Below are positions 1-14,405 of a stretch of DNA of 35,445 bases, in pieces. The position numbers and the translations under genes were made by a program. How positions within the stretch are numbered: position 1 is the stretch's first letter; the number at the start of each line of letters is the position of its first letter. The notes under the pieces are model-generated. The model made no database searches. It had not been told where the DNA came from and saw only the letters and a list, made by a program, of their open reading frames with translations. The stretch comes from an uncultured Pseudomonadota bacterium. Lineage in GTDB: Bacteria; Pseudomonadota; Alphaproteobacteria; UBA9219. The stretch is taken from the NCBI GenBank assembly GCA_903875345.1, contig CAIQVS010000079.1, positions 1 through 35,445 of the forward strand, written 5' to 3'.

Positions 1-817
1 CACGGTGAAGTTTACGTTGCTTGGTGTGCGCGCTGGGTTTTGTCCAGATACCGTTTTCAAGATCGAACATGTCCCATGTAGCGCTTAACACCTCATTCTT
101 CCGGGCGCCGGTGAGCATCAACAACTTAATAGCATTCGCGGAAGCATGCTCGTGATGCGCGTTTAGAGCCATCGCCAGCGCCGCAATTTCATTTTTGTTG
201 AGATAACGATTGCGTTTTTCTTCGTGATTGCGGCGAACACCGATCACAGGGTTCTTGTCGATCCAGTTCCAGCGAATGGCGAGGTTGAAGGCTTTTCTCA
301 CGCTGGCGATAACGCGGTTGGCTCGGGTCGGGGTTTTACGAACCGTCGTGACGTCATGATGCAGCTTATCGATGTCCGCCGATTCGATGCTGACAAGCGT
401 TTCCTTCCCCAATTTTGGCAAGACGATATTTTCCCACATGCTGGTTTCATTTTTTCGGCTGGTCAGCGCCTTGCGCGGCAACCATTCATCCCGATAACGT
501 TCCCACAAATCTTGCATGGTGGGGGCTTCGCGCAAATTCTGGCGCTTACCCATCGGATCAGCACCCGTGTCGATTTCCTTCTTGTGTTCGCTGGCGACCT
601 TGCGCGCCGCTGCCACAGTCCAGTCGGGATAGGCGCCGATGGTAAAACGGCGTTGCCGCTGGCCGCTGCGATAATCAAGAATGAACGATTTTGCGCCGCC
701 TGACGTTATGCGGACGCCGAAGCCCTTCACATCGCTGTCCCACAGGATGCGCTGGCCCTGCTTGGGCGACAAAGCCTTGCGGACTTCGTTATCAGTCAGT
801 TTCGAGCTTGCGGGCAT
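1..817 (-). CDS. Phage/island-type tyrosine integrase (N-terminal arm-binding region plus start of catalytic domain; C-terminus beyond window edge)
   Basis: Not in ORF track because it has no stop inside the window. Reverse-strand translation from ATG at 817: MPASSKLTDNEVRKALSPKQGQRILWDSDVKGFGVRITSGGAKSFILDYRSGQRQRRFTIGAYPDWTVAAARKVASEHKKEIDTGADPMGKRQNL...KNEIAALAMALNAHHEHASANAIKLLMLTGARKNEVLSATWDMFDLENGIWTKPSAHTKQRKLH; contains LLMLTGARKNEVL catalytic box I. Confidence 0.9.
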   Translation of the reverse strand, partial: MPASSKLTDNEVRKALSPKQGQRILWDSDVKGFGVRITSGGAKSFILDYRSGQRQRRFTIGAYPDWTVAAARKVASEHKKEIDTGADPMGKRQNLREAPTMQDLWERYRDEWLPRKALTSRKNETSMWENIVLPKLGKETLVSIESADIDKLHHDVTTVRKTPTRANRVIASVRKAFNLAIRWNWIDKNPVIGVRRNHEEKRNRYLNKNEIAALAMALNAHHEHASANAIKLLMLTGARKNEVLSATWDMFDLENGIWTKPSAHTKQRKLHR

Positions 818-982
818 GGTCCGTGTCAACACTGTGTCAACAACCTGAATGGCGAAAACTGTAAATGGGTTTCGCCCAATGGCGTCAAACAATCGCTCAA
901 TTTCGCAAATAAATCAAGGGTTTTTGACGTTCGTGCCGGAATATGCAATGTTGACAAAAGGTTGAGGAAAGGCGCGAAAACG

Positions 983-1031: not shown

Positions 1032-1487
1032 CTAAATTGCTATGTGCCTGGCAGTAGGTGCGCGAGATGAACGTCTGTGCGGCGTTTGTTTCAGGGCAGG
1101 AAGTTCAGTAACGACGAGAGTGTCGCAGCTTGTTTTGTGACCGGCGGCGCGGGCAAGCGATAATCGGCATACCCCTGATGCAATCAGAGCTGCGAGACAG
1201 CGCAAACGAGATCCGACTCGGCCAAGCAAGGTTTTTGCCACCGTATAGGCTATCCAGTTAACGAAAAACATGATGTGGCGCGCTTCTTCCTGCGCAACAG
1301 GCTCAAACACATTGATCAGTTCAGGCGGGAAGCATCCCGAATGCGAAATGGGAGCCGGGATCGTGCGGCACCAGCAGGGAAGACAGCAGTCTCTGACATG
1401 ACAAATCTCCGGAATCTGATCATCGGGGCACGGGACGCCAAGTCTTGAACTGCGAGAGGTATAGAAACCACGGGCAATTATAATCAT
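1032..1487 (-). pseudogene. Decayed fragment of a ferritin-like domain protein (tentative)
   Basis: Only the middle of the ORF ([28 protein letters not shown]) looks protein-like (ferritin-like EExxH pattern); the flanking residues are low-quality and Cys/Arg rich. Confidence 0.35.
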
Positions 1488-1904: not shown

Positions 1905-4568
1905 CTAGGCTACCGGCAACCACAACACATCATCGATATGCTCGGCGCCTGTCGCCAGCATGACAAGCCGATCAAAGCCGAGCGCGATTCCGGCGCATTC
2001 CGGCAAGCCGTGGCGCAAGGCGGCGATGAAATCCTGATCGATCGGCGTGCGTTCGCCGTATAGTTTTTGCTTCAAATTCATATCGGCCTGAAAACGGCGT
2101 AGCTGTTCTTCGGCATCGGTTAATTCGCCGAAGGCGTTGGCGAGTTCAATTCCGCAAACATAAAGCTCGAACCTTTCCGCCAGACGCGGGTTGTCATTCT
2201 TGGGGCGCGCGAGCGCAGCTTGACGGATGGGGTAATCGCAGAGAAAGGTCGGTCGATCCTTGCCGAGGAATGGCTCGATGCGTTCGCCGAGGATGCGGAA
2301 AAACAGGTCGTCCCAGCCATCCCCCTCGGCAACCCGTACGCCAATGCGGGAAGCTTCGGAGATCAGGTGTGTGGCGGAGGGATTCCAATCGTCGTCGATG
2401 GTCGCCAGAATATCGATATCCGTATACCGGCGGAAGGCTTCCGGCACGCCGAGATTTTCCCACGTGTCGAATGGATCGCACGTCAGGCCTTGCGCGGCGA
2501 AACCTTTGCGTCCGGCGACCGTTGCCGCGCTGCGCAAGAGGTGAACGCAGTCTTGCTTAATGGCTTTAAGATCGGCGTTTCCGCGATACCATTCCAGCAT
2601 GACAAATTCAGGATGATGACGAGACGACCGCTCACCGTTGCGGAAAACATGCGCCATCTGGTAGAGGCGCGGCACACCGGCGGCGAGCAATTTTTTCATC
2701 GCGAATTCGGGGCTTGTTTGCAGATAAAGCGTGCGCTTCGGCTCGTCGCTATGGGGGCTTTTGATTTCAGTCGCGAACGTTTGCAGATGGACTTCGTTGC
2801 CGGGGGACGTTTGCAGGATGGGCGTATCGACTTCGACAAAACTTTCCATGACGAAATAATCGCGGACGGCGTGGGTGATCTTCTGTCGGATTTCCAGATT
2901 GGTTTTGCGCCGCGCGAAGGTTTTAGGATGCCATGGCGGAGAAGGCGTGGGTGCCGGTGCGGTCGTATCTTCCGGTAACTCGATAGCATGAGGGTTCGTT
3001 TGCAACGGGGGGCCATTCCAGCGTTTGGGGATCAGCGTACTATGATCGCCAGAAATGAAGCCGCGCAATTCCTCGATGACATGGGCGATAACGGGTGCCC
3101 AGTTGCCGGGTTCGGTTTGCCGGAATAAACGCAAGGTTGGATACCAAGGACTGTCTTCACGCCCCAAAAGCCAGACCCAGTAGGGATCGAAACACAGCAT
3201 CAGCCATGTCGGGCGTCCCATGGCGCCTGCAAGGTGGGCCGTTGATGTGCATGTGGTTATGACAAGGTCGAGTTCCGCCATAAGAGCGGCGGTGCTGCTG
3301 AAATCCTCAAGCATGAAATCGGCATCGAATATTCCAAGACCATCAAGATTGACGCCTTTCTTGTGGGGACCCTTCTGCAGGGACACAAGATGAGGTCGGC
3401 CTTCTTTCAGCAAAGGTTCAACCATCGCTGGCGGTAAGGAACGCAAAGGATCGTTCGCGTTGGTGGGATTGCCGCCCCATACGATGCCAATGCGTGGACG
3501 CGGAACCGACGCAAGCCGTTCACGCCAGATCAAGCGTTGGCGTTCTTCAGCCCAAATATAAGGAATGGGAGTGGGAATTGAGTCAATGCATGTCTCGAAC
3601 CAAAAGGGCAGGCTCATCAAACGCGCGCGCGCATCAGCCTTGGGAACGGGATCATCGAGCGTGATCACGTCGATCATGGGGAAATTTTCGGCAAACAATT
3701 TTTGCAAAGGAGCTGCGACCTGCAGGGTTATTTGCTTCACATGATCGGCGAGCATCAGAAGATAGCGCGCTCCTTGCAAGGCATCGCCGAAACCTTGATC
3801 CTCATACAACAGAAGGTGATTGATGCGCGCGCCTTGCCAGAAGGGCAAATGGTGGAAGCGTGCGTCAAAATCTTGCCGCATTTCCCAAAGTTTCCATCCT
3901 TCATGGTAATCGCCGATCTGTAACCAAGCCATCGCCTCGTTGATCAGGCTCGGCGCGTGATTTGATAGCTGTGCGTTCGCGGCGCGGAAGAAAGACAGCG
4001 CGCGTCCGGGATATCCGGCGCTTTTAAGGACGTTTGCCAACGTCATGGGAATGGTTTTGTTGTCGAGCTTTAGGGCGCGCCGCATCAGGACATAAGCTCC
4101 GCGCAAATCGTGCGAGGCATAGAGCGTTAAGGCATAATCGCTGGCGTATCGGGCTTCGTCCGGTTGCAATTTGAGCGCTTTCTCATGGCAATCACGCGCG
4201 TGTTCCGGTTGTCCCATCCGGTTGAAAACGATGCCCATGAAATTCCAAACGTCGGCTGAGTTCGGATCGAGACGCGCGGCTTCCATTGCGGATTTTAGGG
4301 CGTCATCAAAACGCCCCAGCGTATGTAAAATTAGGGCCCGATTGTACCACGCGGTGGCCATATCTATTTTTTTGGCCAGCGCCGCTTCGATAAGCTTGAG
4401 CGCCAGCTCAGGGTTTTTCCTTTGGTTTGCGATGAGGCCAAGAACATGCAGCGTCTCCGGATTTTGAGGATCCTCGGCAAGAATGGCTTGGCATAACGCA
4501 ACAGCTCCAGCCAAGTCTCCGGCTGAACATCTGTCTAGGGCTTCAAGGAGTTTATGCTGGTTTGTCAT
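1905..4568 (-). CDS. Fusion protein: TPR repeats + GT9/FlbA-like glycosyltransferase region (about 2950-4568) + EF-P lysine--tRNA ligase-like domain EpmA/GenX (about 1905-2950)
   Basis: Single 887-aa ORF. N-terminal TPRs (NPETLHVLGLIANQRKNPELALKLIEAAL...), then LLLYEDQGFGDALQGARYL...PRIGIVWGGNPTNANDPLRSLPP...ITTCTSTAHLAGAMGRPTWLML; C-terminal class II aaRS motifs VEVDTPILQTSPGNEVHLQTF, RLYQMAHVFRNGERSSRHHPEFVMLEWYRG, GIALGFDRLVMLATG. Confidence 0.85.
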   Translation of the reverse strand: MTNQHKLLEALDRCSAGDLAGAVALCQAILAEDPQNPETLHVLGLIANQRKNPELALKLIEAALAKKIDMATAWYNRALILHTLGRFDDALKSAMEAARLDPNSADVWNFMGIVFNRMGQPEHARDCHEKALKLQPDEARYASDYALTLYASHDLRGAYVLMRRALKLDNKTIPMTLANVLKSAGYPGRALSFFRAANAQLSNHAPSLINEAMAWLQIGDYHEGWKLWEMRQDFDARFHHLPFWQGARINHLLLYEDQGFGDALQGARYLLMLADHVKQITLQVAAPLQKLFAENFPMIDVITLDDPVPKADARARLMSLPFWFETCIDSIPTPIPYIWAEERQRLIWRERLASVPRPRIGIVWGGNPTNANDPLRSLPPAMVEPLLKEGRPHLVSLQKGPHKKGVNLDGLGIFDADFMLEDFSSTAALMAELDLVITTCTSTAHLAGAMGRPTWLMLCFDPYWVWLLGREDSPWYPTLRLFRQTEPGNWAPVIAHVIEELRGFISGDHSTLIPKRWNGPPLQTNPHAIELPEDTTAPAPTPSPPWHPKTFARRKTNLEIRQKITHAVRDYFVMESFVEVDTPILQTSPGNEVHLQTFATEIKSPHSDEPKRTLYLQTSPEFAMKKLLAAGVPRLYQMAHVFRNGERSSRHHPEFVMLEWYRGNADLKAIKQDCVHLLRSAATVAGRKGFAAQGLTCDPFDTWENLGVPEAFRRYTDIDILATIDDDWNPSATHLISEASRIGVRVAEGDGWDDLFFRILGERIEPFLGKDRPTFLCDYPIRQAALARPKNDNPRLAERFELYVCGIELANAFGELTDAEEQLRRFQADMNLKQKLYGERTPIDQDFIAALRHGLPECAGIALGFDRLVMLATGAEHIDDVLWLPVA

Positions 4569-4655: not shown

Positions 4656-4691
4656 GAAAAACGCCCCGGCCCATTTTAACGAGCCGGGGCG
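4656..4691 (-). terminator. Rho-independent terminator of the flagellar operon
   Basis: Perfect 9-bp stem CGCCCCGGC (4662-4670) / GCCGGGGCG (4683-4691), followed on the minus strand by TTTTT, just after the stop at 4706. Confidence 0.85.
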
Positions 4692-4705
4692 CTTATTTTT
4701 CGGCA

Positions 4706-6205
4706 TCAAGCGGCCTGAAGAAGTCCGTAGGCGTACCATTTCACAATCGACTGCGAAACGACATCTTCAACCATCTGTTGCGCGATCTCAGGAGTCGCTT
4801 TGGCGGCGTTCATGACCTGTTGTGCGGCTTCCGGCAGGTCAGACAGGCGTTCCAGTTCCGGCATCAGCGCGGAAACGGAATTGGCAAGACCGGCGCGGTC
4901 GAGCGCCTGCATGACCAGCGCATCGCGTGACGAAACCATAATGGTATCGCCAAGCACGGCAGAGGCCATGCTGAATGTTTCGCCTTGCACCGTTGTTTTG
5001 CCAAGATATTGGTTGTAACTGCCCGCAAGACGGGGTTGAGCGATGCTGCCAATGGCTTCCGGCTCCGTAATCGACAGCCCACGCATGGGACGCGCAACCC
5101 CACAGGCTACAAGCACCTGAACCGCTTCAAGAATATCGCTGACGGCAAAGCCTTTGCATTCAGGATAAATCAGGATATCCCCGATGCTGACCGGCATCAG
5201 AGTCATCAGCTCAATCAGTGCTTTGTAAAGCGGCGAGTCAAGAGGAATGGTCTTGCCTTCGGCGGCAAACTGCGACGGCACGTCTTTGCTGGCGCACGTT
5301 ATGCCGTATGAAAATCCGCCGAACAAATCGACGGGATTTGCGCTGAGGCTTGCTCCTTGCCTCCGCCAGATGTCATGCCGCACCGTGCGGTTAAGCGTGA
5401 AATCCTTGATGGCTTCGTAAAGGGGATTCTCCCGGCATCCGACGATGATCGATTGGGCATCCTGTGGCACGGCCAGCTCGACATAGTTTGCCGGAATATG
5501 CGTGTCTCCGGCATAGGCAAGGCCACGGGGATGGAGGGCGACGATCGTGTCGAAGGCTGCCGAACGAGCTTCGCCGCCGTCAAACAAAGCAAAAAATTCG
5601 TCCGGTATGTGCCGCTGTATGGCTTGATCCAGCGCCTGAGCCTGATCTTTGCGCTCGGCAAAATAAAGTTTGCCCAGTTTTTTCAGTTCAGTCAGGAACA
5701 CGTTGGCCTGATTGACGTTCATTTCCGGGGCAAATTCACGCACCAGAAAACGTAACGTGCTTTCGACATTCGGGTTGGACTTGTATCCGGTTACAAAAAG
5801 CCCATCGACGCCAAGGCATGTAGCGGCAAGATCGAACACCGCATTCCGGTCCAAAGCGCTCAAGGGCTGATCGCTTTCATCGCAGATCAGATAATCCAGC
5901 TTTGGCAGGAAAAGTTCATCCTTGTTTGCGTGCGCCAGAATCTCGCGAGGCGCGGCGCAGATCATGCGGACATTATTGACGTGGCGAGCCTTGGCCAGTT
6001 CTTGCGCGTTGGCACAGGCGGCATTGTCGCGCGTAAAGCCATAGAATTGCCCTTCGGGATTGCTTGCGGCGAGGCCGATCAATCCCTCCGCGTCGCGGCA
6101 ATCAACGAGAGCATAACTGAAGGCTTTGCCCGGCATCCGGGGTTTGACGCTACGCAACGCGGCGACATAGCTGAGGGAGACGGGGCTGAGGTTTGGCATG
6201 TTCAT
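4706..6205 (-). CDS. Methyltransferase-like protein with methyltransferase regulatory domain; SAM-binding motif degenerate
   Basis: Translation from MNMPNLSPVSLSYVAALRSVKPRMPGKAFSYALVDCRDAEGLIGLAASNPEGQFYGF...; internal VELAVPQDAQSIIVGCRENPLYEAIKDFTLNRTVRHDIWRRQ. GGAG upstream of 6205; ORF-track start at 6343 overlaps flgL and is less likely. Confidence 0.6.
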   Translation of the reverse strand: MNMPNLSPVSLSYVAALRSVKPRMPGKAFSYALVDCRDAEGLIGLAASNPEGQFYGFTRDNAACANAQELAKARHVNNVRMICAAPREILAHANKDELFLPKLDYLICDESDQPLSALDRNAVFDLAATCLGVDGLFVTGYKSNPNVESTLRFLVREFAPEMNVNQANVFLTELKKLGKLYFAERKDQAQALDQAIQRHIPDEFFALFDGGEARSAAFDTIVALHPRGLAYAGDTHIPANYVELAVPQDAQSIIVGCRENPLYEAIKDFTLNRTVRHDIWRRQGASLSANPVDLFGGFSYGITCASKDVPSQFAAEGKTIPLDSPLYKALIELMTLMPVSIGDILIYPECKGFAVSDILEAVQVLVACGVARPMRGLSITEPEAIGSIAQPRLAGSYNQYLGKTTVQGETFSMASAVLGDTIMVSSRDALVMQALDRAGLANSVSALMPELERLSDLPEAAQQVMNAAKATPEIAQQMVEDVVSQSIVKWYAYGLLQAA

Positions 6206-6230
6206 AGAGAGGACTCCTTCCTTGGTGTGG

Positions 6231-7685
6231 TTAAAGATAACTAACGAGGCTAAGCTTTTCGAGACTGGCGGTCGCGGAATAGGATGCTTCCATCTGCGAT
6301 TGCAGGATTGTGAGTGCCGTCGCAACTTGTGTCGTATCGGCATTCTGGATCGTGCCGAGATTGTTTTGCAGAAGCGTAATATTGCTGTTTTGATTGGTCA
6401 CTTCCTGAGACAGCGCGTTCTGGTTATTGGCAACGTCGGCATTTAAGGTTTGAATTCCTGTTAGCGCCTTGTTGAGCATGGACGATCCCAGCTGCATATA
6501 CGATTGGTAGGTGGCCGTGTCACCGCTGTTGCCCGCCGTCACCGCTGCGTTGATATAGCGCAGACCATTGATCAGCCGCTGGAAGCTCGGATCATTGCTC
6601 GAAAGACCATAAGAAAGACTGTTGTTTGCGTCAATGAGGGCTGAGTCTGCTGTGTACGCTTCCGGGTTCGTTGCCGTGATGGCTTTGCCATCCTGTGTAA
6701 AGGTATTCTGACTTACGGTCGTGCCGGTGCTGGAAATGGTCAAGGCATTATTGCCTGCTGCCAGCCCATAGGAACCAAAATCCAGACTGATAGACTGCGG
6801 CGATGTTTGGCCGGGGAACGTCATGGAAAGACTGACATCCGCAGCCTCTCCCGTTCCTGTCGGCAATCCTACGGAATAAGGCGACGGGGCTGAGGCGCTT
6901 GAGCTGTAATCTGATATGCTGCTGAGTGTTCCGGTCGAGGAATCAAACGTGAAGGGAATAACGGTTGTGTAGGTGGCGTCCGGCGAACTGACGGCTAAAT
7001 CCCATTGCGGTGGTGTACTGCCGGTGTTGCTCCATGTATAATTAAGGTCATGCGACGTTCCGCTTGCATCGTAAACCTGAACGGTTGACGTTGGGGCTGT
7101 GTAGCCGCCGCCTTGGGTTCCGGGCAGCGCTGCGCCATAGGTGGCATTTTTTGTCGCTACAGCGGGACGCTCAGTGTCATAATCGGGCAGCGTTGTGTTG
7201 TCTGTAATAATAGACTGAGGTGTATTGTTGAGGGTGGTCGGATTGTTGGAAACGGGTTGGGTATTGTAACGCAGTCCGGCGTAGATATAACGTCCGCTGA
7301 CTTGCTGATTCAGGTCGTCGGCAACCTGATGTAGGTAGTTTTGCGCTTCCGCTTGAATGTTGCTCGCGGTTGCCGCGTTATAGCTCTGATTGCCCGCTGC
7401 GAGGCCGGCAGCGTTTGAGGCTATCGTCTCCATGTCCGACATGGTTGAATTGTAAATGGTTAGGCGATTTTGCACGGTCTGAATCGAAGAGAGATACGAT
7501 TGTCTCTGCGTGATGCTGTTCTGAAAATTGACGATTTGCGACGCATCGTTTGGCGCATAGTTCGTCAAATTGCTGTGTTGTTTTCCGCTCGCAAGCTGCT
7601 GGTTCAGGGTTTCCAGATACGCCATTTCGTTCTGCAACCCTGCGGTTAGCGTGTAATTTATTCCTATGTTGCTGATTTGCGTCAT
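6231..7685 (-). CDS. flgL: Flagellar hook-associated protein 3 (hook-filament junction) FlgL with inserted hook D2-like domain
   Basis: N-term MTQISNIGINYTLTAGLQNEMAYLETLNQQLASGKQ and C-term coiled region typical of FlgL/flagellin; directly follows flgK. Confidence 0.85.
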   Translation of the reverse strand: MTQISNIGINYTLTAGLQNEMAYLETLNQQLASGKQHSNLTNYAPNDASQIVNFQNSITQRQSYLSSIQTVQNRLTIYNSTMSDMETIASNAAGLAAGNQSYNAATASNIQAEAQNYLHQVADDLNQQVSGRYIYAGLRYNTQPVSNNPTTLNNTPQSIITDNTTLPDYDTERPAVATKNATYGAALPGTQGGGYTAPTSTVQVYDASGTSHDLNYTWSNTGSTPPQWDLAVSSPDATYTTVIPFTFDSSTGTLSSISDYSSSASAPSPYSVGLPTGTGEAADVSLSMTFPGQTSPQSISLDFGSYGLAAGNNALTISSTGTTVSQNTFTQDGKAITATNPEAYTADSALIDANNSLSYGLSSNDPSFQRLINGLRYINAAVTAGNSGDTATYQSYMQLGSSMLNKALTGIQTLNADVANNQNALSQEVTNQNSNITLLQNNLGTIQNADTTQVATALTILQSQMEASYSATASLEKLSLVSYL

Positions 7686-7695
7686 CGCGGATCCG

Positions 7696-9132
7696 TTACC
7701 CTATCGAAGAAATGAGAGTCGATAGCATGTTGTTAACCGTCGTAATGACGTGCGCCGAGGCGGCGTAGCTGTTTTGATAGATCACGAGATTGGCGAGTTG
7801 TGTGTCAACATTGACGCCGGTTGTGCTGGCAAGGGTGGTTTTATAATAACTCTGCTGGCTGGCGTTGGTTGTGTTCTGCGTGCTCAGAATGTTAGCGCTT
7901 TGCTGAAAGCCCGAAAGCACCTGCGCGCCAAGCTGGGTGTAGGTAACTCCGTTTGCGGTCAATCCTGAAGCTGTATAGTTCGCAGTCGTCGTGAATGTGC
8001 CCGCGATTGCCTGAGTGCCAGTTTGTGGAATTTGGGATGTGCCGTTCAGCAAATCCGGATTAACGACAAAGGAGCTGCTGTTGGCGACGCCTGCGTTGAA
8101 GGATGCCTGAAAAAAATTATTGTCAACCGTATCGCCGTGCTGCGTAGCCGTGGTCGCCGTGGAGGCCGAGGCCGCGTTTGAGTATGCGTTGGCGAAAAGG
8201 GATGTCGATCCCCCCGGTTGATTGACAAACGCGGCAACGATTGCCGATAATTGCGATTGCATTTTTGGAATTGTCGCGACGCCGGGTGACGTGCTGGTGA
8301 CCTGATTGGGGTCGCGAAAATCAAGTTCAGCCTGAAGGGAGCCGCCCGTTAGCGAGCCGTTGACGGGCGCTCCGGTCTGGTCTTTGACGTTCGTGCCGTC
8401 ATAAGAAAAGGATGTTGACGTCGGGCCGTCGACCAGAAGCTGTCCGCCCGTCGTATAAACGGCAATTTCGCCGTTGCTACGGCTTTCGCTCGTTACGGAA
8501 AGGTAGGTGGAGAGTTGATTGATAGCCGTGTCGCGCTGATCTTGGAGGTCGGTTGCGTTTTGTCCGGAGGTCGTGGCGAGTTGGATCTGGGAATTGAGGC
8601 TGGCGATATGCTTCAATGCGCTGTTGAGACTCGTGACCGTGGTCGACGTGTCGGATTGCACTTGGGTATTGAGCGTTCCCACATTGGCCGCGATCGTTTG
8701 GATGTCGCTCGCAAGTTGTTTTCCGGCATTGATGACGTTTTGCTGCTGAATTGAACTTTCCGGTTGTGCCGAATACTGGGTCCAAGCTGAAGCAAAATTG
8801 GAGATGTCGCTGGTCAGGGTTGGGTTGCTGGCCGTCGAATCGAGAATGGCCTGCACCTGTGTCATGTAGCTGTTGAGGGTGCCAGTGTAGGACGCTGTCG
8901 ATGTCGCCGCATTGTAATTGTTGGTTAAGGTGGGATCGGTCGTGCGGGTGTAGGACGTGATCGTCGAACCGCCGCCTTCCGCGCCAAAATCGAGGGAGGC
9001 GACGTTGGCCGTTTTGTTGGAATAGCCGGGGGTGTTGGCGTTCGAGATGTTGTCGCTGGCCACCGAGATGAGGCCAGTGGTGGTTTGCAACCCGGAGAGT
9101 GCGACCGACAAAGCCTGTGTAAGCGAGGTCAT
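7696..9132 (-). CDS. flgK: Flagellar hook-associated protein 1 FlgK
   Basis: N-term MTSLTQALSVALSGLQTTTGLISVASDNISNANTPGYSNKTANV; C-term GVNVDTQLANLVIYQNSYAASAHVITTVNNMLSTLISSIG. Confidence 0.93.
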   Translation of the reverse strand: MTSLTQALSVALSGLQTTTGLISVASDNISNANTPGYSNKTANVASLDFGAEGGGSTITSYTRTTDPTLTNNYNAATSTASYTGTLNSYMTQVQAILDSTASNPTLTSDISNFASAWTQYSAQPESSIQQQNVINAGKQLASDIQTIAANVGTLNTQVQSDTSTTVTSLNSALKHIASLNSQIQLATTSGQNATDLQDQRDTAINQLSTYLSVTSESRSNGEIAVYTTGGQLLVDGPTSTSFSYDGTNVKDQTGAPVNGSLTGGSLQAELDFRDPNQVTSTSPGVATIPKMQSQLSAIVAAFVNQPGGSTSLFANAYSNAASASTATTATQHGDTVDNNFFQASFNAGVANSSSFVVNPDLLNGTSQIPQTGTQAIAGTFTTTANYTASGLTANGVTYTQLGAQVLSGFQQSANILSTQNTTNASQQSYYKTTLASTTGVNVDTQLANLVIYQNSYAASAHVITTVNNMLSTLISSIG

Positions 9133-9164
9133 GACATGACTTTCCTAAACCGGCGAAACAAACG

Positions 9165-10487
9165 CTATTGCACCATGCTGAGCGTTACTTGCAGCAACTG
9201 GCTGTCCGTCGTCACAATTTTTGCGTTGGCCGAATAAATCTGCTGTGCTTCGATCAGGCCTGTGAATTCATTTGCAATATCGACGTTGGAGGATTCGAGC
9301 GAACTGCTTGAGAGCGTACCGGCACCGGCAATGCCTGGCGTGTTGTATCGGGCCGTGCCCGCATCAATCGTTGCCTCATAGGCGCCGCCGCTCACGCGCT
9401 GCAACTGATCCTGAGCGTAGAATTGCACGATCGGAATCTGCGCAATCGAACGGGTCGTGCCGTTGCTGTAGTTGATCGATACAAAACCGTCTTTGCTGAT
9501 GGACAGGCTGTTGAAGGAACCTTGCGGCAGACCGTTCTGGCTGAAATTATTGACCGTGACCGTGCTGCTGGTGTTGGCAAACTGTGTCAGTCCGGTTGAG
9601 GAGCCATAGGCGTCGCCGAAATTCAAATCGATGGTTTGTCCCGTTGTAAATCCGGGAAAGGTGGCTGACAGGGTAACGTCCGGGGTGCCTGACGAAACGC
9701 TATAGGGCGAGGGCGCGGAGGCGCTGGATGAATAGGCACCGATGGCTTCAACTGTGCCGGCTGTACCCAAGGCGCCATCGTTAAACGTGAAGGGGATGCT
9801 GGTTGTATAAGTTGCATCAGGAACTGTAACCTGAAGATCCCATTGATTGGCCGTGGATGTTTTGGTCCATGTGTAATTGATGTCGTGCGTGGTGCCTTCC
9901 GAGTCATAGGCCAGCACGGTCGAAGTTGACGACACATAACCGCTGGTCGCATTGGACGGAAGGTTCGCATTGTAACTGACTAAGCTTGTTTTAACCGGGT
10001 TGTCGAGCGTCGCCGAAATCTGGATAGGGCTTGTCGTTGACGTATTGACGACACCTGTCGACGCATTGACGCTATAGCCGTTGAGATAAAATCCGGAACT
10101 GTTAACAAGATAGCCGCTTCGATTGAGCGTGAAATCGCCTTGGCGCGTATAATAGGTTGCTCCCGTGAAGGTCGTGGCGCCGGTCGTGCCGACCGTCGCG
10201 GTTCCGACCGCGAAGTAACCCTGACCCGATATGGCCAGAGAGGTCGAGGTATTCGAACTGGTAATACTACCCTGCACATCGTTCTGGTAGGAAGGTAAGG
10301 CCTGCACGCCGCCCGGATTGTTGACAGTCGCGCTCGATGAGTTCACCAGCTCTTCGAAGGCTGTGCCGACGGCCTTGTACCCTGTGGTTTGCGCGTTAGA
10401 CAAATTGTCGGAAATGTTGCCGATCGCAGTCGATTGCGCGTCAAGGCCGGAAATGGCTGTTGTCAAAGCGGCAAAGAGTGAACCCAT
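9165..10487 (-). CDS. flgE: Flagellar hook protein FlgE
   Basis: MGSLFAALTTAISGLDAQSTAIGNISDNLSNAQTTGYKAVGTAFEELV...ISGQGYFAVG...SSLESSNVDIANEFTGLIEAQQIYSANAKIVTTDSQLLQ. Confidence 0.93.
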   Translation of the reverse strand: MGSLFAALTTAISGLDAQSTAIGNISDNLSNAQTTGYKAVGTAFEELVNSSSATVNNPGGVQALPSYQNDVQGSITSSNTSTSLAISGQGYFAVGTATVGTTGATTFTGATYYTRQGDFTLNRSGYLVNSSGFYLNGYSVNASTGVVNTSTTSPIQISATLDNPVKTSLVSYNANLPSNATSGYVSSTSTVLAYDSEGTTHDINYTWTKTSTANQWDLQVTVPDATYTTSIPFTFNDGALGTAGTVEAIGAYSSSASAPSPYSVSSGTPDVTLSATFPGFTTGQTIDLNFGDAYGSSTGLTQFANTSSTVTVNNFSQNGLPQGSFNSLSISKDGFVSINYSNGTTRSIAQIPIVQFYAQDQLQRVSGGAYEATIDAGTARYNTPGIAGAGTLSSSSLESSNVDIANEFTGLIEAQQIYSANAKIVTTDSQLLQVTLSMVQ

Positions 10488-11406: not shown

Positions 11407-13011
11407 TTAATGAACCGGTTCATGGTACAGCGCCGCCTTTAACAACGCCCTGGTATAACTCTCGCGCGGGTTGGTGAAGACATCCAGCGCCGCGCCTTGC
11501 TCGACGACTTTGCCGTCCTTCATCACGATCACATAGTGCGACAGGGCTTTGACGACGCGCAGATCGTGGCTGATGAACATATAGGCCAATCCGTGTCGGC
11601 GTTGCAGATCGCGCAGCAGATCGACGATTTGCGCCTGCACCGACATATCGAGCGCCGAGGTCGGCTCGTCCAGAACGATGAATTTGGGTTTCAGGATAAT
11701 CGCGCGCGCGATGGCGATGCGTTGGCGCTGCCCGCCGGAAAATTCATGCGGATAGCGGTCGCGCATGGCAGGATCAAGTCCGACCTCGTTTAAAGCCTCG
11801 GTCACCCGCGCGGCGCGTTCCTCCGGCGAGGCGGCGAGGCGATGAATGTCCAGCCCCTCGGCAACGATGTCGCCGATCGACATGCGCGGACTTAGACTGC
11901 CATAGGGATCCTGAAACACGATTTGCATGGCGCGGCGGATCGGGCGCAACTCGCGGCGGTTCAGTCCGGTCAGGTTTTGCCCAAGGAACAGGACGGTTCC
12001 GGTCGAGGAAATCAGCCGCAGCAACCCCAGCCCCAGCGTGGTTTTGCCGGAGCCGGATTCGCCGACGATGCCGACCGTCTCGCCTGCCCGCACCGTCAGC
12101 GACACGCCGTCCACGGCGCGGATGTAATCGACGGCGCGGCGCAAAACGCCCTTACGGATCGGGAAATAAACCTTGAGATCGTCAATGCGCATAATCTCGG
12201 CGGCATCGGCGTGGACGGTCAGCGCCTCGCCCTTCGGCTCGGCGGCGAGCAGCATTTGGGTGTAGGGATGCTGCGGCTTGGCGAAAAGCTGTTGAGCCGG
12301 GGCTTGCTCGACGATCTGCCCGTTCTTCATTACGCAGACCCGATCCGCCACCTTGCGCACGATGCCGAGATCGTGGGTAATCAGCAAAATAGCCATGCCG
12401 AGTTTTTTCTGCAGCTCTTTCAGCAATTCCAGAATTTGCGCCTGAATGGTGACGTCCAGCGCCGTCGTCGGCTCGTCGGCGATCAGCAAGGCCGGATCGT
12501 TCGCCAAGGCCATCGCGATCATCACGCGCTGCCGCTGTCCGCCGGAAAGTTCATGCGGATAGGAAGTCAGCCGTTGCTCGGCGTTCGGCAGGGCGACGAG
12601 CCGCAGCAACTCCAGCGTCCGCGCGCGCGCCTGCTCGACGGTCATTTTCTTGTGCAGCAGCAGAACTTCGCCGATCTGCTTTTCCAGCGTGTGCAGGGGA
12701 TTGAGCGAGGTCATCGGTTCTTGAAACACGATCGCGATCTTGTTGCCGCGAATGGCGCGCATGACGCTTTCCGGCGCGCCGACCAATTCCTGCCCGTCAA
12801 ACGTAATGCTTCCGCCCGGATGCCACGCGTTGGGATAGGGCAAAAGCTGCAACACCGATAAAGCCGTCACCGATTTGCCGGAGCCGGATTCGCCGACCAG
12901 CGCCAGAGTCTCGCCGCGTTCGATTCTAAACGACACGTCGTGCACGGCTTCGACGGCTTGTCCGCCGTGACCGAAGGTGACGCTGAGATGATCGACTTTC
13001 AGCAACGTCAT
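11407..13011 (-). CDS. yejF: Microcin C/oligopeptide-type ABC transporter ATP-binding protein YejF (two fused ATPase domains)
   Basis: Start [47 protein letters not shown]; two Walker A ([16 protein letters not shown]) and two [16 protein letters not shown] signatures. ATG at 13011 overlaps the yejE stop (ATGA). Confidence 0.92.
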
Positions 13012-14036
13012 TTCCTGCCACCCTGAATCTTCCTCGGATCGAACGCGTCGCGCACGGCTTCGCCGATGAAGATCAGCAAGGTCAGCATCACCGCCAGAAC
13101 GGTAAAGGCGCTGAGGCCGAGCCACGGCGCTTGCAGATTGTTCTTGCCCTGATTGAGCAGCTCGCCGAGGGAGGGCGAACCGGGCGGCAAACCAAAACCC
13201 AGAAAATCCAACGCCGTCAACGTCGTGATTGAGCTGTTCAGGATAAAAGGCAAAAAGGTTAGCGTCGCCACCATCGCGTTCGGCAGCACATGTCGGAACA
13301 TGATCGTGAGGTCGTTGGCTCCCAGCGCTCGCGCGGCGCGGACGTAATCGAAATTCCGCGCGCGCAGGAATTCGGCGCGGACGACATGCACCAGATGCAT
13401 CCACGAAAAACACAGCATCAGGATCAGCAACCACCAGAAATTCGGCTGCACGAGGCTCGCCATGATGATGAGCAGGTACAGCATCGGCAACCCGCTCCAA
13501 ATTTCGATGAAGCGTTGCATCAGCAGATCGGTCAGGCCGCCGAAATAACCCTGCACCGCACCGGCGGCGATGCCGACGATGGAGGACAGGAGCGTCAACG
13601 CGAGGCCGAACAGAACCGAGATACGAAAGCCGTAAATGATCCGCGCCAGCACGTCGCGTCCTTGATCGTCGGTGCCGAGCCAGTCGGTCGCGTCCGGCGG
13701 CGATGGCGCGGGCTCTCTGAGGGTATAGTTGATCGTGTTGTATGAAAACGGAATCGGCGGCCAGAGCATCCAGCCCTTGGCCTCGATCAGTTTTTTGACG
13801 AAGGGATCGCGGTATTTGGCCTCGGTCTGGAACTCGCCGCCGAAGGTGGTTTCGGGATAGCTGGCGAAAACCGGAACGTAATAATGCCCGTCGAACTTGA
13901 CCAGCAACGGATTGTCGTTCGACACGAACTCGGCGAACAACGTCACGCCGAACAGGACAAGGAAAATCCAGAACGACCAGTATCCGCGCCGGTTGGCCTT
14001 GAAATTCGTGAGGCGTCGTTGGGTGAGGGGTGACAT
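13008..14036 (-). CDS. yejE: ABC transporter permease YejE
   Basis: LGTDDQGRDVLARIIYGFRISVLFGLALTLLSSIVGIAAGAVQGYFGG...EFLRARNFDYVRAARALGANDLTIMFRHVLPNA; inner-membrane permease EAA-type motif. Confidence 0.9.
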   Translation of the reverse strand: MSPLTQRRLTNFKANRRGYWSFWIFLVLFGVTLFAEFVSNDNPLLVKFDGHYYVPVFASYPETTFGGEFQTEAKYRDPFVKKLIEAKGWMLWPPIPFSYNTINYTLREPAPSPPDATDWLGTDDQGRDVLARIIYGFRISVLFGLALTLLSSIVGIAAGAVQGYFGGLTDLLMQRFIEIWSGLPMLYLLIIMASLVQPNFWWLLILMLCFSWMHLVHVVRAEFLRARNFDYVRAARALGANDLTIMFRHVLPNAMVATLTFLPFILNSSITTLTALDFLGFGLPPGSPSLGELLNQGKNNLQAPWLGLSAFTVLAVMLTLLIFIGEAVRDAFDPRKIQGGRK

Positions 14037-14117
14037 GGGGAGCAGATGACAGACGACGGAGGGTGAACGGCGGACGATAACAAAATTTTACGTTAGGCGC
14101 ATGTTTTCTGTCCTCCG

Positions 14118-14405
14118 TTATCCGCCGTTTATTTTCCGTCCCGGCACCGGATCGAAACCTTGTCCGCCCCACGGATGACAGCGGCAGAAACGTCGAAAGG
14201 CGAGGCCTAAGCCTTTCGTCGCCCCGTGAATCCGGAGTGCTTCGTTCGCATATTCGGAGCAAGTGGGCAGAAAACGACACTGACGGCCAAGAAAATAGGA
14301 CAAGCTGTGGCGGTAGAGCCAGACGAGCCCCCGCAAAGCTAAGGTGATTGTTGCGGATAGTGGTTTAACCGTTTGTTGCAGCATGATTTTCGCGTCGCAC
14401 ATCAA
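14118..14405 (-). CDS. yidD: Membrane protein insertion efficiency factor YidD
   Basis: RHSLSYFLGRQCRFLPTCSEYANEALRIHGATKGLGLAFRRFCRCHPWGGQGFDPVP. Confidence 0.95.
   Translation of the reverse strand: MMCDAKIMLQQTVKPLSATITLALRGLVWLYRHSLSYFLGRQCRFLPTCSEYANEALRIHGATKGLGLAFRRFCRCHPWGGQGFDPVPGRKINGG

Follow-up and report, generated by a model that had tools for sequence, protein, structure and literature searches.

An 887-codon open reading frame (ORF) in the contig analyzed here (GenBank CAIQVS010000079.1, from an uncultured alphaproteobacterium; its 35,445 nucleotides are referred to as the window) joins a TPR-glycosyltransferase (GT) of a flagellar locus to EpmA, the EF-P beta-lysyl ligase. 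The locus raises the question of whether this ORF is one gene or two genes made to look like one, and what each half would contribute to a joint product. We consider it rather probable that the fusion is genuine and specific to this lineage, and that it places the cell's sole EF-P ligase on a TPR/GT-B body whose own catalysis is probably crippled. The domain arrangement is new; its parts are known.

A single ORF encodes a TPR-GT and EpmA

The ORF reads without interruption on the minus strand from an ATG at position 4568 to a stop at position 1905 (Table 1), and the plus-strand frame over the same interval contains many stops. An inspection of the letters alone (the sequence-only reading) had described this ORF as a TPR-GT, lying beside the flagellar operon, that continues in frame into a complete EpmA-like domain. 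Both halves proved to be full-length in alignments, with no stop between them, and the EpmA domain is full at residues 554 to 886 by TIGR00462, above the curated cutoff of 286.9 bits. The description of the other half as a complete TPR/GT9-like protein was borne out in its completeness: the GT half aligns full-length with the family's stand-alone TPR-GTs at 43 to 49% identity, its TPRs are found at about residues 15 to 215 by Pfam, and its AlphaFold2 model, built from 30 homologues, is confident (pLDDT, 95.4; pTM, 0.90). Pfam recognizes the GT part weakly, with a PF01075 match below its cutoff (14.8 bits against 22; E = 0.018). An AlphaFold2 model of the full-length fusion, for which only three EpmA rows were alignable, reached a mean pLDDT of 71, with low values in the linker, and gave no information on the EpmA half.

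Table 1. Features of the fused gene and its flagellar neighborhood
Feature	Position	Strand	Basis
FlgL-like, FlgK, and FlgE genes, the flagellar block of the GT	6231..10487	-	Domain matches; synteny
Methyltransferase-regulatory-domain protein, the GT's conserved neighbor in relatives	4706..6343	-	PF10119; synteny
Terminator hairpin with a TTTTT tail, separating the fused gene from the methyltransferase gene	4659..4694	-	-29.8 kcal/mol, z = -5.9
Fused TPR-GT and EpmA gene	1905..4568	-	ORF; Pfam and NCBIfam matches
TPR (about residues 1-228) and GT-B domain (about 240-515), natural C terminus at about residue 533	2970..4568	-	Orthologue ends; AlphaFold2; PDB fold matches
Codon 440, Cys replacing the donor-site Asp of D(T/S)(A/G)xxH	3249..3251	-	Asp in 30/30 aligned homologues
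Codon 465, Val replacing the invariant Arg of the W-R-W motif	3174..3176	-	Arg in 30/30 aligned homologues
Pro-rich 12-residue linker DTTAPAPTPSPP, matching EpmA's own leader	2934..2969	-	Stand-alone EpmA starts
PPW motif, residues 544-546; its Trp is that of the W-x-P conserved at the EpmA N terminus	2931..2939	-	EpmA comparison
EpmA (EF-P beta-lysyl ligase) domain, residues 546-887	1905..2933	-	TIGR00462, 382 bits

The EpmA half looks intact and is the only EpmA of the genome

When compared with 34 EpmAs, the EpmA half was unchanged at all 103 columns conserved at 90% or above, and it keeps 54 of 54 invariant columns. The class-II core and the beta-lysine-type motif 3 (A before LG) are conserved, with alignment to PDB 3g1z and 3a5z. 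By these comparisons the EpmA half looks intact, and EF-P lysylation activity is predicted. A check of the class-II synthetase matches in the genome identified the fused copy as the sole epmA; the remaining matches were LysS, AspS, and a weak HisS-like protein.

Neither epmB nor efp is among the annotated genes of the window, as the sequence-only reading had remarked, and its suggestion to locate them led to other contigs. The EF-P encoded there retains the modifiable Lys (PGKG/PGKGAA), and an EpmB-like lysine-2,3-aminomutase matches TIGR03822 at 486 bits while falling below the cutoff of the EpmB model TIGR03821. The genome thus contains both partners of EpmA, an EF-P with a modifiable Lys and an aminomutase, in addition to epmA, with the three genes scattered. 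A comparative genomic study of the pathway reported no clustering of the three genes in 9% of the genomes that have it, and the words "fusion" and "fused" are absent from its text (PMC2821294).

The GT half keeps its fold and lacks two invariant residues

Alignment of the GT half with 30 homologues drawn from the family, order, and class revealed 25 invariant columns, of which the fused copy keeps 23. The two changes are D440C, at the signature Asp, and R465V, at the W-R-W Arg; all 30 homologues have both residues. Each change requires at least two base substitutions, which rules out single-base sequencing errors as their explanation. The count of two is unexceptional, and an orthologue (L121) likewise has two unique changes, which are milder (G224A and A427T); it is the positions changed in the fused copy that are exceptional. 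General decay of the GT half was considered and rejected, since its identity to four outgroup genomes (0.43 to 0.48) is like that of the orthologue in the relative G011 (0.45 to 0.48), with no acceleration. Retention of the body together with a changed active site is the pattern of a pseudo-enzyme or of changed specificity.

If the latter applies, the product could be a bifunctional enzyme, in which EpmA modifies EF-P and the GT, its donor site or specificity changed, is still active. Flagellar modification and EF-P activation would then be made in a fixed 1:1 ratio. The confident fold, the 23 kept columns, and the G011-like divergence are consistent with this idea. Moreover, the WahF heptosyltransferases work with Ser at the position of the signature Asp, D261 in HepI (PMC3559599), and D440C is therefore no proof of inactivity. 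However, both lost residues are invariant throughout the 30 homologues, and the D261A substitution at the corresponding Asp of HepI lowers activity about 2000-fold (PMC5713226). We regard a bifunctional enzyme as unlikely. Under the preferred reading, that of a crippled GT body, the loss of two invariant residues, including the donor-site Asp, suggests that the ancestral flagellum-linked glycosylation is most likely gone; the GT half, its fold and general constraint kept, would act as a pseudo-enzyme or carrier.

GT and epmA are separate genes in relatives

The fusion was compared with 23 family relatives, none of them from the same genus. Among the resulting 24 family genomes, which represent 9 genera, no second fusion was found, and the halves are separate wherever both were seen, as nonadjacent ORFs at different loci. 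The expectation that EpmA is normally a stand-alone protein was supported in these relatives. The closest genome for both halves is G011 (GT, 552 bits at 49% identity; EpmA, 555 bits at 69%), where the two genes lie on different contigs; a two-species chimera was rejected because the same genome is nearest for both. Beyond the family, none of the EpmAs was recognized as having a genuine extra domain, either among 385 class genomes (128 with a match) or, in a phylum sample, at about 150 loci among the matches listed. The search for the same fusion in relatives, proposed in the sequence-only reading, was accordingly negative in the family, class, and phylum samples.

In the course of this search, we extracted and inspected 21 loci at which a long frame is open around epmA. 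At 13 of these (L155-L158, L160, L161, L163-L166, L169, L171, and L173), the extension is the antisense of a divergent efp gene and hence no fusion. At L175, efp lies just upstream of epmA in another frame. At the rest (e.g., L159, L162, L167, L168, L172, and L174), nothing beneath the extension matched efp, and visual inspection alone led us to regard these frames as spurious. In many high-GC alphaproteobacteria epmA diverges from efp, and the frame antisense to efp is free of stops and continues in phase into epmA. The result is spurious long EpmA ORFs that annotators could mistake for fusions.

The flagellar locus is rearranged behind the GT gene

The position assigned to the fused gene by the sequence-only reading, beside the flagellar operon and behind its terminator, was correct. 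The hairpin closes the block of FlgE, FlgK, FlgL-like, and methyltransferase genes, and the fused gene starts behind it; a sigma-70 scan upstream of the fused gene found no promoter. In at least six family relatives (G011, G004, G022, G013, G020, and G018), the order is FlgE-FlgK-FlgL-methyltransferase-GT, with the GT as a separate gene that ends the block. In several of these six, the next genes past the GT, which are convergent, include flagellin. Here, the flagellin cluster is found apart from the GT on another contig (C62), and there, once past the gene that in relatives comes before the GT, the genes have no match at that place in those relatives. The location of the flagellin cluster on a different contig indicates that the flagellar locus was rearranged in this genome: the GT lost its usual 3' neighbor and gained epmA.

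Beyond epmA lie a DUF1150 gene, the remnant of a decayed gene, and, where the contig ends, part of a tyrosine integrase, which makes mobile-element activity near the breakpoint plausible. The integrase (positions 2-892, minus strand) is truncated by the end of the contig, so that only an N-terminal part is present, with Arm-DNA-bind_3 and the beginning of Phage_integrase. The remnant between it and the DUF1150 gene (1032-1487, minus strand) is a frame without a full gene that matches part of a 298-aa gene of G005 (L122:3369-4265; 58% over 79 aa). The neighborhood of epmA varies among the family relatives, and rearrangement is therefore a common background, which counts against the preferred reading. 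No conserved epmA neighborhood carried along into the fusion locus was found, nor does this genome contain a match to the porin-like gene that G011 and G006 have upstream of epmA.

The join falls between the natural ends of two proteins

The Pro-rich linker EDTTAPAPTPSPPW is as the sequence-only reading had described it. Twelve residues separate the end of the GT from EpmA's conserved Trp. Stand-alone EpmAs of the family start 3 to 14 residues ahead of this Trp, and one has an additional TTG 2 residues before W-x-P. Because the spacing in the fused copy lies within the range of these leaders, the linker is best taken for the leader of EpmA itself, lacking a start codon that could be used. Between codon 500 and M574 there is neither an ATG nor a GTG in frame, just TTG501 and TTG522, both within the GT part. 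Orthologous GTs end in NPLEIKLPD, SPNALRLDK, or NTHAIHLPA, with C-terminal residues LPD, LDK, LPA, or LPS at this point, where the fused copy reads NPHAIELPE and enters the linker. In these comparisons, the join appears seamless, with the natural C terminus of the GT on one side and the EpmA leader on the other.

An assembly artefact, either a missed base or a chimeric join, could also make two genes appear as one. An out-of-frame ATG at 2989 and a TAA at 2925 exist in frames fit for two separate genes, and a single base missing within about 2934-2987 would let the GT end at the latter and epmA start at the former. Also favoring an artefact are the occurrence of the fusion in no relative and its source, one draft MAG of 454 contigs with 8% contamination, which is the chief weakness of the fusion reading. 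Against it, the linker contains no homopolymer above 4 (one AAAA; the other runs are of 3), a separate EpmA would have a leader of 18 to 19 residues, longer than the first candidate starts in the 15 relatives checked (2 to 14), and a chimeric join would have had to meet each protein at its natural end while keeping the frame. No repeat of the junction sequence was found in the rest of the genome, and repeat-mediated misassembly was rejected on this ground. In addition, the loss of the GT's original neighbor is independently visible. The sequence-only reading had held that two ORFs in close relatives together with signs of an indel at the junction would count against the fusion; of the two, only the first holds, as the relatives do have two ORFs, but at different loci. 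With the ORFs of the relatives nonadjacent and the flagellar locus rearranged, a one-base error between neighboring genes is not the simplest account, and we judge an artefact improbable.

Autoregulation through the PPW motif, in which scarcity of beta-lysylated EF-P would stall ribosomes at Pro-Pro-Trp and reduce EpmA, had been raised as a speculation in the sequence-only reading because such motifs need modified EF-P for translation. PPW indeed showed the highest EF-P dependence of three motifs tested in a Bacillus subtilis efp mutant (PMC5885033), but the idea is scarcely credible, since the motif occurs in one copy, comes from EpmA's own N terminus, is present in at least two stand-alone relatives (L025 and L031) and is thus no feature created by the fusion, and would form a positive feedback loop that turns EpmA off when it is needed.

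A model for the origin and function of the fusion

Returning to a real fusion with a crippled GT half, we propose that the flagellar locus was disrupted by a rearrangement directly after the TPR-GT gene, which brought epmA to this point in the same frame. The GT would have lost its stop codon, and epmA its start codon. In the product, the cell's sole EpmA would carry the complete TPR/GT-B body at its N terminus, and we infer that the product is not processed. Its EpmA half would bind (R)-beta-lysine from the EpmB-like aminomutase, activate it with ATP as the adenylate, and attach it to the conserved EF-P Lys, and EF-P so modified would relieve stalling at Pro-Pro.

Since EpmA was unfused in every other genome examined, the fusion shows that a 545-residue N-terminal body is apparently tolerable on a sole EF-P ligase. 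It also appears to have been caught near its birth: the parents are intact at separate loci in relatives, the breakpoint is visible, and the active site of one partner is altered. If the TPRs still bind flagellar proteins, EF-P activation would be linked to flagellum assembly, a process that is sensitive to EF-P in B. subtilis (PMC6613710). The altered or dead TPR/GT-B body might then serve as a targeting module that couples motility and Pro-Pro translation through one protein, by recruiting EpmA, and hence EF-P modification, to flagellar protein synthesis or by making EpmA also act on a flagellar target; we hold this to be doubtful. If the fusion is merely neutral, it would be a clean example of fusion through rearrangement.

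Comparison with known systems

The EpmA half resembles EpmA/GenX/PoxA/YjeA (PDB 3a5y, 3a5z, and 3g1z) over the full-length domain, with a LysRS-like core that lacks the anticodon domain and with GIALG at motif 3 (GVALG in Escherichia coli EpmA); it differs in its N-terminal extension, as the other members examined are stand-alone. The likeness of the GT half to the GT9 heptosyltransferases (WaaC/HepI) lies in the D(T/S)(A/G)xxH region, at PF01075 positions 174-205. It is recognized by this signature motif only, and Cys440 stands in place of the Asp. In a PDB fold search with the TPR and GT-B model, the best matches were SPINDLY and OGT (GT41), with low full-length TM-scores, and the catalytic motifs of these enzymes differ from those of the fused GT.

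In architecture, the GT half is like FlmG of Caulobacter crescentus (PMC7591256), with its N-terminal TPR, C-terminal GT-B, and flagellar role; the flagellar context here is given by the synteny of the block and by the flagellin beside the GT in relatives. Unlike FlmG, the fused GT lacks the signature Asp and the W-R-W Arg, is joined to EpmA, and occurs in a genome without the nonulosonic acid synthase NeuB (PF03102), which was found neither in this genome nor in nine relatives (10 genomes searched). The FlmG-type donor is thus probably not used by these TPR-GTs, and the donor of the family's TPR-GT probably differs from that of FlmG. LysX, the MprF-LysRS fusion of Mycobacterium (PMC9437257), likewise joins a LysRS-type unit to an unrelated enzyme, but with another partner and another substrate, and with a true LysRS rather than EpmA.

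Other features of the flagellar locus

The protein at the FlgL position (6231-7685, minus strand) has a FlgE D2 match (PF07559, residues 199-333) before its flagellin C-terminal domain and is an unusual hook-filament junction protein. The adjacent methyltransferase gene, whose counterpart adjoins the TPR-GT in six relatives, encodes a candidate flagellar protein methyltransferase. Elsewhere in the window, a 957-aa ORF (11407-14280, minus strand) has two C-terminal ABC ATPase domains; Pfam gives no match for its first 400 or so residues. In three relatives (L123:7886-10719, L124:8042-10923, and L132:5713-8513), a second GT-like ORF follows the flagellar TPR-GT and overlaps it.
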